A stretch of 64,000 nt of DNA. It comes from Marvania coccoides (taxonomy: Eukaryota > Chlorophyta > Trebouxiophyceae > Chlorellales > Chlorellaceae). Below, piece by piece: positions 3,578-48,121 of the stretch; the first letter of the stretch is position 1; each line of letters opens with the position of its first letter. The DNA is taken from positions 496,001-560,000 of the forward strand of contig OY978098.1 in assembly GCA_963854735.1 (NCBI GenBank), given 5' to 3'. Made by a program: the position numbers and the translations under genes. The notes below the pieces were generated by a model. The model saw only the letters and a list, made by a program, of their open reading frames with translations. It was not told where the DNA came from and ran no database searches.

Positions 3578-3956
3578 ATTATACCCCATTCTTGATTGCC
3601 GTGGTTTTCTCTTCTTTTTCAATTTCATGCTTGCTCAATAAAAAAAATGGTTTGAACGCGAGCATGCCGATGCCGCTTGCTGTGGCCACGAAAAAAAAAT
3701 ATGTATATATATATATATAATAGCGACATTTGCAATGTTAAAAAAAAATGATATGGAGAGATGGTGCTTTCAGTTTAGAACCTAGAGGCGCAGCACTGGC
3801 TTTGCAGCAAAATTCTTACCTCGCCCTTGCCTGCCAATGCACGAACAGCCTCAGGCGTCTATACTTGAATTTTTCCTCATCGATGTTGTGGGTAAATTTT
3901 TGTTGGATATTTGGGACCAGTCAGATTTGTTTTCCAAGGACAAAAGCTAAAAAAAA
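3578..3956. other. Intergenic region with TA microsatellite
   Basis: This 379 bp AT-rich spacer has a poly-A run at 3691-3699 followed by a (TA)n microsatellite at about 3703-3719. It forms the 3' flank of the channel gene. A long plus-strand reading frame that begins here is the antisense shadow of that gene. Confidence 0.6.
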
Positions 3957-6233
3957 TCACATCTCAATAATAGCCGATTGGCTGCTCGTGAGCGCAAAAA
4001 TTAATATTACGCCCAGATTGTACATGAGCATGGTGAAGATGAGGATGAACCTGTCCACCCCGAATGCCACATACAGCGCAAAGTCCGGATTCTTGCGCAT
4101 CTCCTGCTTCATTTCTTTCCATTTCTTCCACAACGACGCTTTCTTCTTCTTCTTCGGCGAGGCAGCAGCCGGTGATGGTGCGAACGCATCACTTTGTCCT
4201 TGGGGAGAGTCCGAAGGATGGCTGCTGCTGCTGCCTTCTGTGTCGTCGTCTGAGCTTATGCCGTTGCTAGGTCTTCCAGGGTTGGACTCCATCCTGGCGC
4301 CAATATCTCTCGAAGATTCGTGGCTGAAAATTCTCAGCCCCATGCTCGTCTCCCGTCGGATTAGCTCAGAAGGATTCAACGAAGAAGAAGGTGCTGCAGA
4401 AGCGGCACCGTCGTTGGCACCGCTGCCGTCTTCCAATACCGCTTCTAGAGGCTGCTGGGACCGTTGTGGTACAGCAGGGGAGCGTCGGTTGAGTTTTTTC
4501 CTCCTGACCTTGGGCATTGCGTCGATGCGTTGGAGAAACTGCCGCTTTGCAGCCTGCGTTCTCTGCCGCACATTTTGGCGTTTTTGTACTGTCATAATGT
4601 TGTAAACGATAATCGACTCCAACCCTGCGACAGAACATGGCAGAAGTTAAAGCGCCAGTTAAAGAACTTGGCGTATATTATGTGTGCAGGGAATCAGAAT
4701 AAACTTGCCGACAATGCCCAAAACGAAGTAAGAAATTATGCACAGCAGCTGTGTAGGGACGACCGTCGAGCTCTTGGGAAGATCCCCCGCTGCATTCAGA
4801 TAAAATCGGCATTAATACAGGTTAAATAGCAATACAAACATTCTCATGAACGTGTTTAAAAAACGTTTCTTATAATTTTTCTCACCCATTACCCACATCA
4901 TCGCCGTGAGACTGAGGAAGAGCGTAACAACAAGCAGAAGGCGAGCTTCCAGCTCCTTGGGCGACATGGAAAAAACCAAAAGGGCCAGCCAGCAGTTTAA
5001 CACTGCAAATGGGAAATGGAGGATTAAAAAAAAAAAATCAAGTTAGCTCGTAATAGAACAGCAAACTATTTACCTATAGGAATGACCCCAATCAGCACAT
5101 AGTACAAACTAATGCGCTCTATTTCGATAATTATCGCAAACCCCTGCAAAAATAAAACAGCGGCGGCGCCATCGTAAACTAGCAAAACGCGATTTTCGTT
5201 CAATGCAGGGGCGGCATTTACCTCTTTCCATAGAATGCTGACGAAATGAGGTGCATTGGGATCTACTGGATTCAGCCCCCAAGGGTCGTTGGGATTGCTC
5301 TTTGTTGTTATGCTTGGAATGTACGACGCGGGGACAGCGTAAGACATAAACCTCACGCCTTTCAGATTCCAGCCTGAAATATCATCTCCTGCAATTCAAC
5401 ATTTGAATTTGTTGCAAATATGTTTGTTGATGAAACAGGGATAGACCACAATCAAGGTTTGCCGGAGGAAGAAAGATGATGCCTTGCCTGCTCGTGGCAT
5501 GAACCTGCGTAGCAAAATTAATGCAAATTAGGAGTTTATCTATTTCATTAATATTTTAATGGAAAGAAATAAAGGGAAAAAGCAATATAAACAATAGCAT
5601 TTTTGTGGAGTGAACTCACAGCTGCTCCGCTGTGCTGCTGTTGAAAAAGCGCACGGGTAGGTCAGGCGTGCGATCCGCATACGCCATTTGAACCACCAAC
5701 TGTTGATGGTCGAAAGGGAAGCTTAAAAATTCCAAGTTTGTGTAGAATTCGCCCTGAACGTGGGCCCACCACGCCACGGCGTCTGAGACTGCTCCTGCGC
5801 TCGAGTTGACGGTATCTCCAAATCGAATCCCGTACCGCACGATCCTATCTTGGCTAAAACCGCGGGCATTCACAAACTCCAGGTGCGGCAGCCAGACGCC
5901 GTCGCAGCACAGCATTTCGGTATAGATGGCAGCGTACATCGAGGAACACGGCAGATTGCACGAATCATTCCCACTGGCAGCAACGGCGGTAGATGCGAGT
6001 GCTGCCGGGTATGCCCTGGCGTCGGTCCACGTCAGCATGATGAACAAGACAACCTCAAAGCGGTAGTTGCTGTCGTCCACAGAAAGGAGGCGGTCGAGAG
6101 CCGCGCTCACAAAGACGTCCACTCCGCCGGTGGGGGGCAGTCCTTGGCCCTCGAATGGAGTGATCTGCTGCCCAATCACAGCGTTGTGGGTCACAAAAAG
6201 TAGACAAACAGCGAGGCAGGAGGCAAAGGTCAT
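3957..6233 (-). CDS. Pentameric ligand-gated ion channel (Pro-loop / GLIC-like, no Cys-loop)
   Basis: Exons are 6233-5620, 5487-5447 (weak donor, tentative), 5388-5222, 5143-5074, 5002-4886, 4789-4709 and 4624-3957; phases join to about 585 aa. A signal peptide (MTFASCLAVCLLFVTHNAVIG) precedes a beta-sandwich ligand domain with the family WLPHLEFVNA motif and FPFDHQQ loop. The two Cys-loop cysteines are replaced by T and L, as in prokaryotic channels. TM1 follows (IERISLYYVLIGVIPI). Pre-M2 EAR leads into M2 (LLLVVTLFLSLTAMMW). The M2-M3 loop is LPKSSTVVPTQ, then M3 (CIISYFVLGIVGLESIIV). A basic cytoplasmic loop of roughly 150 residues precedes M4 (DRFILIFTMLMYNLGVILI). All core elements are intact, so it is probably a functional plasma-membrane channel. 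Ligand and ion selectivity are unknown. The intron 4708-4625 uses a GC donor. Confidence 0.88.
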
Positions 6234-6792: not shown

Positions 6793-9008
6793 TTAAGCAG
6801 GTTTTGGTTCGTTTCTAGGTTTCGTTGTATTGCTGGAAAATAACCTACGCATCGCCGCCATCGCCTTTCTAAACAGCTTTTTGAACATCACCGCGAAGAC
6901 GGCGGCCGCGACCGCCACCGTGAAGGTCAGCAGCTGGAAAATGCTTTTTGGCGGACTGCGCATGACTTTAGGTACCGACGCTCGGAACAACATCCACAGC
7001 CGCTTGCGCTTGACCCTGGCCTTGGCTGACCCGTCCAGTAGCTCGCTGGCAGCTGCAGACATGTCCCCGGTGCTCAGCGCCTCTGTCAACACCTTGAGGA
7101 GGTCAGCCCGCATCTCCGAGGGCATCTCCGCCAACGTCGCTGCCGGATTTGACATCGCGATGGTGCGACGGAGCGGCACGTTGCGGCGGTCCAACAGAAG
7201 GCTGGTGACGTCCACCGCAGCTGCAGTGGCTGTGACCTCTCCTGCTGCTGCCGCCTGCGGTTCACTGCCCTGCCCTATCGCCTCCGCCCTCGCTGCCTGC
7301 TGCGCCGCAGACAGCCACACTTGCAGGATCTGCCGCGTGGTCTCGTCAGTGCGTAACGCCCCCCCTGGCACCAGCAGCAGCTCTCTCAGCAGCTCTTGGG
7401 CCGCAGGGCGCCGATCTGACAGCAACTGGTTCAGGACCACCGGCATGCCAGCCGCCACCAGCTTGAAATTAGGGTCCACAGTGAGCGCCACCCCCTCCAA
7501 GCTGGCCACTGCTCTGATGACGAGTGGAAAGTATGAAGGCAGCATGAATCGGAACTTGAAAGCCACACGGAACAACACCCCAGCCAGCGTGCTGAAGCTC
7601 AAGCTGCTGGTTTGCAAGCTCAGGAGCGGCAGCTGGGTGGCCAGCGCGCCGGTCTCGGAGGTCCCTGATGAAAGCACCGCCGAAAACTCTTTTTCGAGCT
7701 CTTTGGCCAGGCTCTCCTTGTCTGTGCCTGACTTCAGCAGGTCCATGTTCTCCAGGTCGTTCACCAGCCGCGCCCACTCCCCCAAGCCGAGGTGCACCAG
7801 CGCAGCCATCATTGCTTGGCGGTGGCGGTCGGTCACTCGGACGATGAGCCCAAAGTCAAGGTAGCAAAGCTTGCCGTCATTTTCGAGAAGCAGGTTTCCA
7901 GAATGTGGGTCTGCATTAAAATAAAAACATAAGTGAGCACTTAATAATTGTGAGAATAGGAAAACAAAAATAAAATAAAATTAAGAAACGTGCCTCCGTG
8001 CATGCAGCCTGTGACGAGCAGCTGCGTGAGTGAGCACTGGATGCCCATGCGCACCATTGACAGCACCTCTCCTGGGGTGCCAGACACCAGCAGCTGCGAG
8101 GGACTGCGCCCATCCACCCACTCAGACAGCAGCACCCGACGAGAACACAGCTCAGGCACCGCTTTCGGGGTGGTGATGAACTGCAGGGCCGCGTGCGCCT
8201 TCGCAAAAACCTCTGAGTTGGCCACTTCGTTTCTGAAATCGCACTCCCCTCGAAGGGCAATCCCAATTTCATCAGCCAGCACCCTGAGGTCTCTCGTGAT
8301 GCCTGCTGCGCGCTGCACAACCCCCAGCAGCTGCCGCAGCAGGAAGATGTCCAGCGCGATGCTCTCCGACGCGCCAGGCCGCTGAATTTTGACCGCCACG
8401 CTGCGGGAGCCATACTGCGGCAGCAGCACGCCCCGGTACACCTGGCCCAGGGAGGCTGACGCAACGGGATCCGGGGATAAGTACTCAAACACTTCTCCAG
8501 CCGGCCGCCCCAGCTCCTCCTCCAGGATGGCCAGAGCAACAGCGTTGGGGAAGGGAGGGACTTGGTCTTGTAGTTTGGCCAGGGACTGGGCGTAGACGTC
8601 GCCCACCAGGTCAGGCCGCATGCTCATCGTCTGCGCTAGCTTCACAAAGGTAGGGCCCAGCCGGGTGAGCAGAGCTTGGAGGGCTTGTGCTGTTCGCGCT
8701 TCGCCGCCACTCGTGCCCATCACGACGCTGTCCCAGCTTTCAGCTGCGCGGTAAGCCATGAACTGCAGTCCTGCTGCCGAAACCTCGATGGCCCGTCGCG
8801 TGAGGGCCCACTGGGTGGGAGGAGCCAGGATGTCCACTTGATACACAAGATTGTTGGTCGATGGAGGTTGAGTTGTGGCTCCATCCAGCGAAGGCGCGTA
8901 TGAGGTCAAATGTTTTCGATTTAATGGGCTGTGCGCGTTGCTGTTTCTCCAAAGAGGGCGAACAGGGCAGCTTGGTCTGCCCAGACTGAAGCTCGGCGAG
9001 AGCAGCAT
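6793..9008 (-). CDS. ABC1K / UbiB-family atypical kinase, probably organellar
   Basis: Exons are 9008-7994 and 7910-6793, 710 aa, joined by a GC-AG intron (GGAG|GCACGT ... AATGCAG|AC) that falls inside the catalytic HGDPHSGN motif. Hallmarks in order: an N-terminal presequence of about 45 residues; the family-specific helix LGPTFVKLAQTMSMRPDL (the KxGQ motif reads KLAQ here); the Ala-rich loop VASASLGQVYRG in place of a P-loop; VAVKIQRPG with the ATP-site Lys; the ExD-like GECDFRNE; HGDPHSGN; and the DFG-equivalent YLDFGL. A membrane segment (SIFQLLTFTVAVAAAVFAVMF) lies near the C-terminus. Family members act in prenylquinone and prenyl-lipid metabolism in plastids or mitochondria. The subfamily is not assigned. 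Confidence 0.9.
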
Positions 9009-9266
9009 TGCAGCTGTTAATGAGACAGAGTGCAGTTGTGAAGCATAACAAATTTTTAAAATTAAATGATATAGCCTTACAGAGCCGTGTGGCAGAGCTT
9101 CGTTTAAAATTTCCTCCAGCTGGATTTCATGTTTTCAGCACAGCGAGACCCTCCGAAATCTGCATAATGATACAATTGCAATGCAATCTGATTGATGAAG
9201 AAAACAGGCCAGAGAGCAGGCCCTTCTCTTCAATGATCTGGGGGAGAAAATAAATAAATCAAAATA
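9009..9266. promoter_or_regulatory. Shared promoter between ABC1K and SDR genes
   Basis: A 258 bp region separates two divergently oriented start codons, so both promoters must lie here or overlap. No specific element is recognised. Confidence 0.4.
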
Positions 9267-44071: not shown

Positions 44072-47000
44072 ATGTCTGGCACCGGAGCCGGCACAAAGCG
44101 GCCTTACCAGCAGAATAATGTGAATGCACCTCGCAAAAGGCCGCCTGCGGACGATGCGGACGACTTCATCGAGGAGGACTTTGACCTGGAGCCCCCTGAG
44201 GACTACGATGAGGACGGCCTGGCCGCAGCGGAGGTGGTGGAGGACACTTTGGGCGAGGCCGGCCGCAACTGGAATCGCCCACCCCCTCCTGCGCTCAACC
44301 CCGCCCAGGACCGCCTGATTTTCCAGCAGCTGGAGGTGGACTACACCAGTGGCCCCCCCAACAAGCAGTTTTACCAGTCAGACCTGGTCGAGGCGCCCAT
44401 TCTGCGCATGTTTGGCGTCAACGAACTCGGTGAGCAATCCTTTCCCTGTTTTCTGCACATTTCCCAAAACCAAATTGACCCCCAAAATATGTATGATCAT
44501 TTTTTTTCTTCCTTTCTTTCCCTCAGGCAACTCTGTATCCGTTTTCGTCCATGGCTTCGAGCCTTACTTTTTCGTGGAGGCGCCCACGCCCACCTTCAGC
44601 CCTGACGACTGCGCTGCCCTCGCAGACGTGTTCAACGTAAGCCAATCCGCGCACTTTTCATTATTTTAAGATTTCCCTTTTAATTTCTGTCAAATTTTGT
44701 CTCAAAACCTCACTTTTCTTCGCTCAGAACAACCTTGCGGGCCGCGACAAGAGCCGCAACCCGCGCCGCTGCCTGCGCGTGGAGCTCGTCCGCAAGCAAA
44801 CCATCCAGTACTACCAGCCACAGACCTCCCGCCTCTTCCTCAAGGTGGTGCTGTCGCTGCCCAACCTGGTAGCCGCCGCTCGTGGCGCCATTGACAATGG
44901 CCACGTGGCGCTCAATTGGCTGGGCCACGGGATGAACCTGCGGGGGCCCACCTTCGAGTCCAACGTGCCTTACGCTCTGCGGTGAGTGCATTTCAGTATA
45001 CATTTCATCCCCTTTTTTCAAACCAACAATTATATTTCCAACGCCAACAATAAAATGCCGAAATCAACCAAATGTACACCATTCTCACCCATTTTTTCTC
45101 GCGTTTCGTCTCATTAACTTGATATTCAGGTACATGATCGACTCTTCCATCGTGGGTGGCAACTGGGTGGAGCTCCCTGCTGGGTCCTACTCTCTCACGC
45201 CCGAGGCTGGCATGCAGACGCACTGCCAGCTGGAGGCGCACGTGAACTACAACTCAGTCATCAGCCACCCCTGCGAGGGGGAGTGGGCCAAGCTGGCCCC
45301 CTTCCGCATCCTCTCTTTGGACATTGAGTGCCAGGGCCGCCGAGGCCACTTCCCGGAGGCTCAAAAGGACCCTGTCATCCAGATTGCGTCGCTGGTGACC
45401 GTGTTTGGCGAGAAATCCCCCGCGGTGAAGAACATCATGACTCTGGGCACCTGCGCCCCCATCACAGGGGCTGAGGTGATGAGTTTTGACACCGAAAAGG
45501 CGCTGCTGCTGCGGTGGAGAGACCTGCTGGTGGAGACCGATCCAGACATCATGATCGGCTACAACATCGTGAACTTCGATCTGCCCTACCTGCTGGACCG
45601 CGCCACCGCGCTGGGGCTGCCGCAGTTCCACGCGTGGGGGCGGCTGCGGGGAAGAAAGATCCGCATGCGGGAGGCGCGCTTTTCCTCCAAGGCGTACGGC
45701 ACCCACGAGTACAAGGAGATCACCATCGAGGGGAGGGTGCAGTTCGACCTGCTGCAGGCCATTCAGCGCGACCACAAGCTGTCGTCTTACAGTTTGAATT
45801 CCGTGTCTGCGCACTTTCTAGGGGAGCAGAAGGAGGACGTGCACCACTCGGAGATCTCCAAGTTGCAGGACGGCAACTCCGAGTCCCGCCGCCGCCTGGC
45901 TGTGTACTGCCTGAAGGACGCGTACCTGCCGCAGCGCCTCACCGAGAAGCTGATGTACATGTACAACTACGTGGAAATGGCGCGCGTGACGGGAGTCCCC
46001 ATGTGAGTGCGCAATAAAGAGCAAATTATAATGCATAGTTTTAGTTTTTCAATTTTTACATTTATTTTTAATGAAAATAGTTTTCTTACTTTTTGGTTTT
46101 TTCCTTCTCTTTTTCCCCCACCCCAACAGGTCCTACCTCCTCTCCCGGGGGCAGTCTATCAAGGTATTTTCCCAGATCCTGCGCAAGGCGGCGCAGCGCG
46201 GCCTCATCGTGCCGGTGGTCAAGCGCCAGGGCGACGCCGCCGAGGGCGCCAAAGCCTACGAGGGAGCCACCGTGCTGGAGCCCAAAGCGGGGTACTACGA
46301 CCGCCCCGTAGCCACCCTCGACTTCGCGTCGCTGTACCCCTCCATTATGATGGCGCACAACCTCTGCTACACCACGCTGGTGCCGCGGCACTTGGCGGGG
46401 CAGTTTGACACACGACCGGGGGGCAACGCGGTGAAGACCCCGCAGGGGGACGTGTTCGTGAAGTCGGAGATGCGGGCCGGGCTGCTGCCGGAGATTCTGA
46501 CCGAGCTGCTGTCGGCGAGAAAGCGCGCAAAGAAAGACATGGAGACGGCCACCGATCCTTTCTTAAAGGCGGTGTTCAACGGGCGGCAGATGGCGCTCAA
46601 GGTGTCGGCCAACTCTGTGTATGGGTTCACCGGCGCGACCGTGGGGGCGTTGCCTTGCCTGGAGATTTCTTCCTCGACGACTGCCTATGGTCGGGAGATG
46701 ATTGAGGACACCAAGCGGCAGGTGCAGGCGCGGTACACCCGCGCAAACGGCTACCCTGCGGACGCTGACGTCATTTATGGCGACACAGATTCCGTCATGG
46801 TCAGTTTAAAGTTGTTTTTTAATGGAGACATCAAATATTTTGTTCACTGTGTGTTTTATCCAGTGCCGGCTGCAATATTTCCCTCCATTACTATACTCAT
46901 CCATTGATGCCAAATTTCTACTCTTTTTCAACTGATATTTCTTTCTTTCTTCCCTTTCCTTTTAGGTGCTGTTTGGCGTGGAGGACACCGCCAAGGCAAT

Positions 47001-48121
47001 GGAGCTGGGCCGGGAGGCCGCCGCCGCGGTTTCCGCGACGTTCGTCAACCCCATCAAGCTGGAGTTCGAAAAGGTGTACAACCCGTACCTGCTGATCAGT
47101 AAGAAGCGGTACGCGGGGCTGTTGTGGACAAAACCGGAAAAGTGGGACAAAATCGACACCAAGGGCATTGAAACGGTGCGCCGCGACAACTGCCTGCTGG
47201 TGCGCAACGTCATCACCACCTGCCTGGATCGAATCTTGGTGGGACGCGACCCCACCGGTGCTGCTGAGTACGTGAAGGGCGTCATCGCCGACCTGCTGCA
47301 AAATAAGCTCGACCTGTCGCTGCTGGTGATCTCCAAGGGTCTGACGCAGAACGCGGACGACTACGAGAACAAGGCGGCCCACGTGGAGCTGGCGAAGAAG
47401 ATGAAAAAGCGGGACCCGGCGACGGCGCCGACTGTGGGCGATCGCGTGCCTTACGTCATCATCAAAGCTGCAAAGGGCGCCAAAGCCTACGAGAAGGCGG
47501 AGGACCCCATCTACGCGCTGCGCCACAACCTCCCCATCGACAGCCAGCACTACCTGGACCACCACTTGGCGCTGCCGCTGATGCGACTGTTCGAGCCCAT
47601 CCTGAAGAACCCCAAGGAGCTGCTGTCGGGGGCGCACACGCGCACCATCACCGTCACCACGCCCTCCGCGGCGCTGGGCGGCATCATGAAATTTGCGCAG
47701 AAGCGGCTGACGTGCCTGGGGTGCCGTGCTGGGCTGGCCAAGGGGGAGACGACAGTGTGCAAGCACTGCAAGCCCAGGGAGGGGGAGATCTACACGCGAG
47801 CGCTACTGGGGGTGAACGATCTGGAGGCGCAGTTCTCCGCGCTGTGGACCCAGTGCCAGCGCTGCCAGGTCGTTCTATGTTTTTTATTTCAAAATATTTG
47901 CCTCCCCGTTTTTGCTCAAGCGTTGCTCTGAAATTCCATTTATACTTGTTTTTCTTTGTGCTATTCAATTAATATTCGACTTGTGTTTTGTTATGCAGGG
48001 CTCGCTGCACCAGGACGTGCTGTGTGCTTCTCGCGACTGCCCAATATTCTACCGCCGCATGAAGGTGCAGAAGGAGCTGACGGAGGCGCAGGTGTCGCTG
48101 GAGAGGTTCGAGGACTGGTAG
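44072..48121 (+). CDS. POLD1: DNA polymerase delta catalytic subunit
   Basis: Exons are 44072-44429, 44527-44636, 44728-44981, 45130-46002, 46130-46799, 46966-47868 and 47999-48121; phases agree and give 1096 aa (human about 1107). It is the lagging-strand replicative family B polymerase. A basic N-terminal nuclear signal (APRKRPP) precedes an acidic region. The 3'-5' exonuclease has LSLDIECQG (about residue 304), [11 protein letters not shown] and YCLKDAYLP. Polymerase motifs are [17 protein letters not shown] (about 596), [12 protein letters not shown] and YGDTDSVMV (about 750, interrupted by an intron after SVM). The C-terminus has zinc module CysA ([19 protein letters not shown]) and Fe-S module CysB (CQRC...CASRDC). 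It ends FEDW with TAG. Confidence 0.97.

Follow-up and report, generated by a model that had tools for sequence, protein, structure and literature searches.

Does the alga whose DNA was analysed here carry a complete pentameric ligand-gated ion channel (pLGIC), and, if so, does the gene belong to the alga, where did it come from and what might it do? The question arises from a minus-strand gene running from position 6233 to 3957 of the window, by which we mean the whole stretch of 64,000 nucleotides (C2:496001-560000). Our reading of the sequence is that this is a genuine and apparently intact gene for a Cys-less (Pro-loop) pLGIC, and that its host is probably an alga whose plastid is of the green type.

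The best gene model consists of seven exons, joined in phase to give 585 amino acids and a stop; splicing and translation thus returned the exon count, protein length and coordinates that had been proposed in the earlier note. All exons lie on the minus strand. Exon 1 (5620..6233; 614 nt, 204 whole codons, donor GTGAGT) contains the start codon, a hydrophobic N-terminus and most of the extracellular domain, including the WTD strand, WLPHLEFVN and the Cys-less FPFD loop. The weakest exon, exon 2 (5447..5487; 41 nt, donor GTCTAT), encodes the beta8-beta9 loop, and exon 3 (5222..5388) encodes beta9 with the conserved GW, a long loop C and the start of beta10. Exon 4 (5074..5143) supplies the pre-M1 arginine (residue 284) and the N-terminal half of M1, including proline 296, exon 5 (4886..5002) the end of M1, the EAR motif and most of M2, and exon 6 (4709..4789) the end of M2, the M2-M3 loop LPKSSTVVP and the first part of M3. 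Finally, exon 7 (3957..4624) covers the end of M3, a basic and serine-rich M3-M4 loop of ~168 residues, M4 with VDRF, and the stop codon. Five of the introns are GT-AG and one, which follows exon 6, is GC-AG (donor GCAAGT); they are 58-132 nt long, with a GC content of 0.29-0.49 compared with 0.53 in the coding sequence.

Alternative junctions were explored by varying one while the others were held fixed. At the end of exon 6, the frame is kept from none of the GT donors but from six GC donors, among which GCAAGT looks consensus-like by eye. For exon 2, GT donors allow two open versions (donor GTCTAT), of 41 or 44 nt and one residue apart, the longer having its acceptor 3 nt further upstream, and GC donors allow three more. 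A direct join of exon 1 to exon 3 stays open only from GC donors, six of which were found. We consider exon 2 likely to be real. A frame on the plus strand (3742-4602) lies antisense to part of exon 7, and we did not count it as a gene.

The predicted protein has the layout of the family: the hydrophobic N-terminus, which appears signal-peptide-like on hydropathy, is followed by a pLGIC extracellular domain and four membrane helices, and the hydropathy peaks correspond to M1-M4. The profile search by which the earlier note proposed to judge this identity gave a divided answer. Pfam PF02932 (Neur_chan_memb) matched at 56.9 bits (E 4.9e-15; cut-off 28.1), with the match extending to residue 573, but PF02931 (Neur_chan_LBD), at 18.7 bits (E 0.0012), fell short of its 26-bit cut-off. 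Profiles built from bacterial sequences only scored well above shuffled sequences in both halves of the protein: the extracellular profile gave 52.8 bits (E 3.8e-15) against exon 1, where the best of 2000 shuffles gave 4.7, and the transmembrane profile gave 37.7 bits (E 1.9e-10) against the full protein, where the best shuffle gave 10.2. Together with the PF02932 match, these bear out the assignment to the pLGICs. The beta-sandwich of Neur_chan_LBD is accordingly indicated by the bacteria-only profile rather than at the Pfam cut-off, and also by a fold comparison using a weak structure model of exon 1 (mean pLDDT 59.7, pTM 0.58), whose alignment contained pLGIC rows, so that the fold match is not independent.

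The motifs singled out in the earlier note are all in place, with WLPHLEFVN at residues 114-122, FPFD at 172-175, LPKSSTVVP at 340-348 and VDRF at 553-556. Table 1 of Jaiteh et al. (2016; PMC4795631) lists seven positions conserved across pLGICs, and the algal protein has the residue in question at each of them: F172, P173, D175, W225, R284, P296 and P341. The F/Y-P-x-D motif between beta6 and beta7, with its invariant proline, reads F172 P173 F174 D175. The aromatic residue of beta9 (W225), the pre-M1 arginine (R284), the 14' proline of M1 (P296) and the M2-M3 proline (P341) are each invariant in a six-row alignment.

What the protein lacks is the Cys loop itself. FPFD forms the tip of a Pro loop (5709..5720, minus strand), and the flanking positions, which align with the two cysteines of the human alpha-7 receptor, are T and L, just as had been claimed; the animal-type pair of cysteines bracketing a 13-residue loop is therefore absent. 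A polar residue followed by a hydrophobic one at these positions is described in PMC4795631 as the pattern of bacterial channels.

Several segments set the protein apart from the ELIC- and GLIC-like rows of the six-row alignment. The extracellular segment between the WTD strand and WLPH (5904..6017, minus strand; residues ~73-110) is 16-20 residues longer, there are 12 extra residues after WLPHLEFVN, and a long loop C separates the GW strand from pre-M1. Cysteines 92, 96, 109 and 110 lie in the WTD-WLPH stretch, some of them in aligned columns and outside the gap itself. Nicotinic receptors have an acetylcholine-type aromatic box; because the position of the alpha-7 loop-B tryptophan is an alanine in the algal protein, such a box is unlikely here. 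One might go further and propose a distinct green-algal subfamily, with a redox- or metabolite-sensing role unlike that of any characterised member. Its marks would be the four-cysteine segment directly before the loop-A ligand site, the enlarged loop C and a hybrid filter (Glu at -2' as in GLIC, Ala at -1' and Arg at 0' as in chloride channels, and Leu at 2'). We regard this proposal as speculative and rather unlikely.

For the pore, we used an alignment of 39 rows, made up of 34 loci (38 with a pLGIC frame, minus four duplicates), the query and four references, on which the M2 prime numbers are our own count. M2 begins E-A-R in the algal protein, E-A-N in GLIC, S-E-R in ELIC, G-E-K in alpha-7 and A-A-R in GABA-A beta-3. 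The idea that this region resembles prokaryotic more than animal channels holds in part. In the pre-M2 motif, EAR is closer to EAN than to GEK, but by sequence the nicotinic alpha-7 receptor of animals is the best M1-M3 match among solved structures (E 1.1e-6). GLIC is cation-selective, and the charges at -2' and -1' bear on selectivity. Because the algal protein has Glu at -2', as does the proton-gated GLIC, cation selectivity seems somewhat likelier than anion selectivity.

Taken as a whole, we put the probability that the gene encodes a Cys-less pLGIC subunit with the general mode of action set out here at about 0.82. The subunit would enter the secretory pathway and reach either the plasma membrane or a membrane inside the cell, and would probably assemble as a homopentamer, since the gene is apparently the only one of its kind. 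The extracellular domains would respond to a small external cue, perhaps a metabolite, an amine, an amino acid or pH, and the movement would be relayed to M2 through the FPFD loop, the pre-M1 arginine and the M2-M3 loop, opening the pore. If cations enter, opening would depolarise the cell or admit Ca2+.

The genome assembly comprises 22,462,713 bases in 15 contigs, and the pLGIC gene lies 0.5 Mb into its contig. There are 21 chlorophyll a/b-binding matches in the genome, one of them at C2:579558-580067, ~77 kb from the pLGIC gene. By PDB sequence comparison its product is an LHCII-type protein: the best 60 of 326 PDB neighbours are mostly 'chlorophyll a-b binding protein, chloroplastic', from E ~1e-112, with LHCI chains of 9vfj in the first three places. 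Because this gene sits on the same contig, the host is likely to be an alga with a green-type plastid, and contamination by animal or bacterial DNA becomes less likely. The LHC match would also fit a euglenophyte or a chlorarachniophyte, should its plastid be green-derived. Searching PF04712 (flagella) gave no match in this genome, and the control genomes were likewise without a match.

A six-frame search of the genome with the full protein, seeking a second pLGIC copy, found the gene's own exons and one place at chance level (E 8). Such a search sees exons singly and has little power for genes divided by introns; scoring covered three candidates, and a divergent copy could be missed. PF02932 and PF02931 used as family queries gave no match even for the pLGIC gene itself, which is split. 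The gene is apparently single-copy. Elsewhere in the window, some 560 bp upstream of the pLGIC gene, the minus strand at 6796-7980 matches Pfam ABC1 (atypical kinase) at 39.5 bits, and a long minus-strand frame at 7944-9134 may belong to the same ABC1 gene. The plus-strand frame at 46966-47928 resembles, by eye, the catalytic subunit of DNA polymerase delta.

To place the gene among its relatives, a tree was built from 31 sequences (the algal query, bacteria and two human receptors), which remained of the 39 rows after eight near-duplicates had been dropped, using 263 columns and the Q.pfam+I+G4 model. The algal protein sits on a long branch without supported partners, nested neither with the two human receptors nor with GLIC. 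The surrounding backbone nodes have SH-aLRT/bootstrap values of 38.4/45, 68/31, 29.9/27 and 61/39, and one split deep in the tree (L032-L058 with L042 and L043) reaches 90/96. Over the core, identity to the 30 other sequences ranges from 14.8 to 22.4% (alpha-7, 20.3%; ELIC, 20.2%).

An ELIC/GLIC/query alignment scan of named bacterial genomes yielded nine loci from 377 pattern matches. PF02932 matched 11 of 149 genomes in the phylum of the planctomycete that carries L026, with 8 of the 11 passing the family cut-off, and at least 12 of 398 in the phylum of Vibrio penaeicida (L020), with 3 of the 12 passing; these counts are lower bounds, L020's own genome (G001) having gone unmatched there, though it was matched in another search. 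A core query matched none of 386 genomes in the phylum of the GLIC-bearing cyanobacterium (L025), whose own genome (G002) was unmatched too. A virus-borne relative is unsupported: in two scans of viral contigs, none of 4 and none of 43 pattern-matching stretches encoded one, the patterns being few.

The bacterial loci have peculiarities of their own. Glycomyces artemisiae L027 (1678-3912) is a single frame with Peripla_BP_6 (91.8 bits) ahead of Neur_chan_memb (32 bits), so that this bacterial channel would come with a solute-binding module of its own. One Planctomycetota MAG (G003) has four separate PF02932 matches (L026, L028, L032 and L033), and in other members of its phylum the open frames run to as many as 863 residues, which hints at additional domains. 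The frames of L050-L057, from the phylum of V. penaeicida, are likewise long (609-611 aa within the stretch retrieved; 357 aa in L057) and have a pLGIC C-terminal part; in the alignment, the usual LP is missing from its M2-M3 region.

Four other explanations have to be weighed against a resident, cation-conducting channel, and the closest of them changes nothing except the ion. The same fold could conduct anions (chloride), in the manner of GABA-A and glycine receptors, with Ala at -1' and Arg at 0' setting selectivity, so that opening would hyperpolarise the cell or regulate its volume. The A-R pair does align with that of GABA-A beta-3, and the -1' Glu of alpha-7 is absent, but the Glu at -2' aligns with that of GLIC where beta-3 has Ala, and the best structural match over M1-M3 is alpha-7, itself a cation channel. 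Moreover, according to PMC4795631, the motif is in general no predictor of selectivity in protists. An anion channel is thus a possibility to be taken seriously, if the less probable one. Another possibility is a decaying gene, or a subunit that requires an unseen partner, in which case no homomeric channel would be made. Exon 2 is marginal, and animal relatives include hetero-oligomers, both of which speak for it; an uninterrupted frame of 585 residues that keeps the conserved residues of the superfamily argues the other way, as does our failure to find a second subunit gene, in a search that handles split genes poorly. We therefore think decay or dependence on a partner improbable.

The remaining two explanations concern origin. 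The case for contamination, with an animal or some other member of the culture as the source of the DNA, is that animal nicotinic receptors are the top PDB matches. It fares badly against the position of the gene, well inside a contig that also carries the LHCII-type gene, against a GC3 of 0.62 in its coding sequence, inside the 0.55-0.84 spread of the 30 long window frames listed (antisense ones included), and against the failure of the protein to nest with the two human receptors; we consider contamination next to negligible. Horizontal transfer with a cyanobacterium or another bacterium as donor, recent enough to trace and followed by intron gain, would explain the Cys-less loop, the EAR motif and the ELIC-like WLPHLEFVN, and identity to ELIC is 26% in a three-sequence alignment. 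It would have to account for six introns and for an M3-M4 loop that is long where GLIC and ELIC have short ones, and the low core identities point to no close donor among the 30 tree sequences. The empty search of the cyanobacterial phylum also counts against it, if weakly, given that the genome bearing L025 was itself unmatched. PMC4795631 places the Cys-less channels of eukaryotes (protists and some invertebrates) in a single clade and recovers eukaryotic pLGICs as a whole as monophyletic, with low support. An old transfer from bacteria, as suggested in the earlier note, is neither established nor contradicted by the tree and the cyanobacterial search. A traceable transfer of this kind thus strikes us as very improbable, slightly more so than decay, and we continue with a Cys-less pLGIC resident in the alga.

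How new is such a gene? The earlier note held that these receptors are generally considered absent from land plants and from well-known green-algal models. The first half agrees with Jaiteh et al. (2016; PMC4795631), who detected no pLGICs in multicellular plants or fungi. The second half is contradicted by the same paper, which records pLGICs from the Chlorophyta and names Chlamydomonas and Chlorella as examples; PMC11085791 cites that paper for Cys-less pLGICs in chlorophytes. The novelty that the earlier note saw in the gene thus rested on an outdated absence. As of 2016, a biological role was known for no unicellular pLGIC, as stated in PMC4795631, and among the titles and abstract openings that searches of the open-licence PMC literature brought up, none announces a functional study of a green-algal one. 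Known pLGIC distribution is not overturned by the algal gene, which adds a data point on the persistence of the family in the green-plastid lineage. A compact alga of 22.5 Mb with an apparently single-copy pLGIC would also be convenient for asking about its role, as one knockout might remove the family.

Among known channels, the animal receptors share with the algal protein a long M3-M4 loop and a VDRF-like start of M4. Compared with nicotinic alpha-7, its best PDB sequence match, the algal pLGIC is without the Cys loop, the vicinal cysteines of loop C and the loop-B tryptophan, and has EAR in place of GEK. ELIC (PDB 2yn6_A) and the related proteins of Dickeya undicola and Vibrio (L019-L021 and L024) are likewise Cys-less, and their WVPALEFIN and FPFDRQQ resemble the algal WLPHLEFVN and FPFDHQQ, with Glu in ELIC and Ala in the alga at -1'. 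The proton-gated GLIC of Gloeobacter, whose reference sequence is identical to PDB 8i41_A over 313 residues, has 17.6% core identity to the algal protein, which differs from it in having Arg rather than Asn at 0', Leu rather than Thr at 2', extra length in the extracellular domain, a long M3-M4 loop and introns. Nearest in kind, set beside it by published description, are the Cys-less (Pro-loop) pLGICs of protists, including Chlorophyta: according to PMC4795631, these are likewise eukaryotic and without the Cys-loop cysteines, and they share with the algal protein the polar and hydrophobic residues at the cysteine positions and all seven of the family-wide residues.
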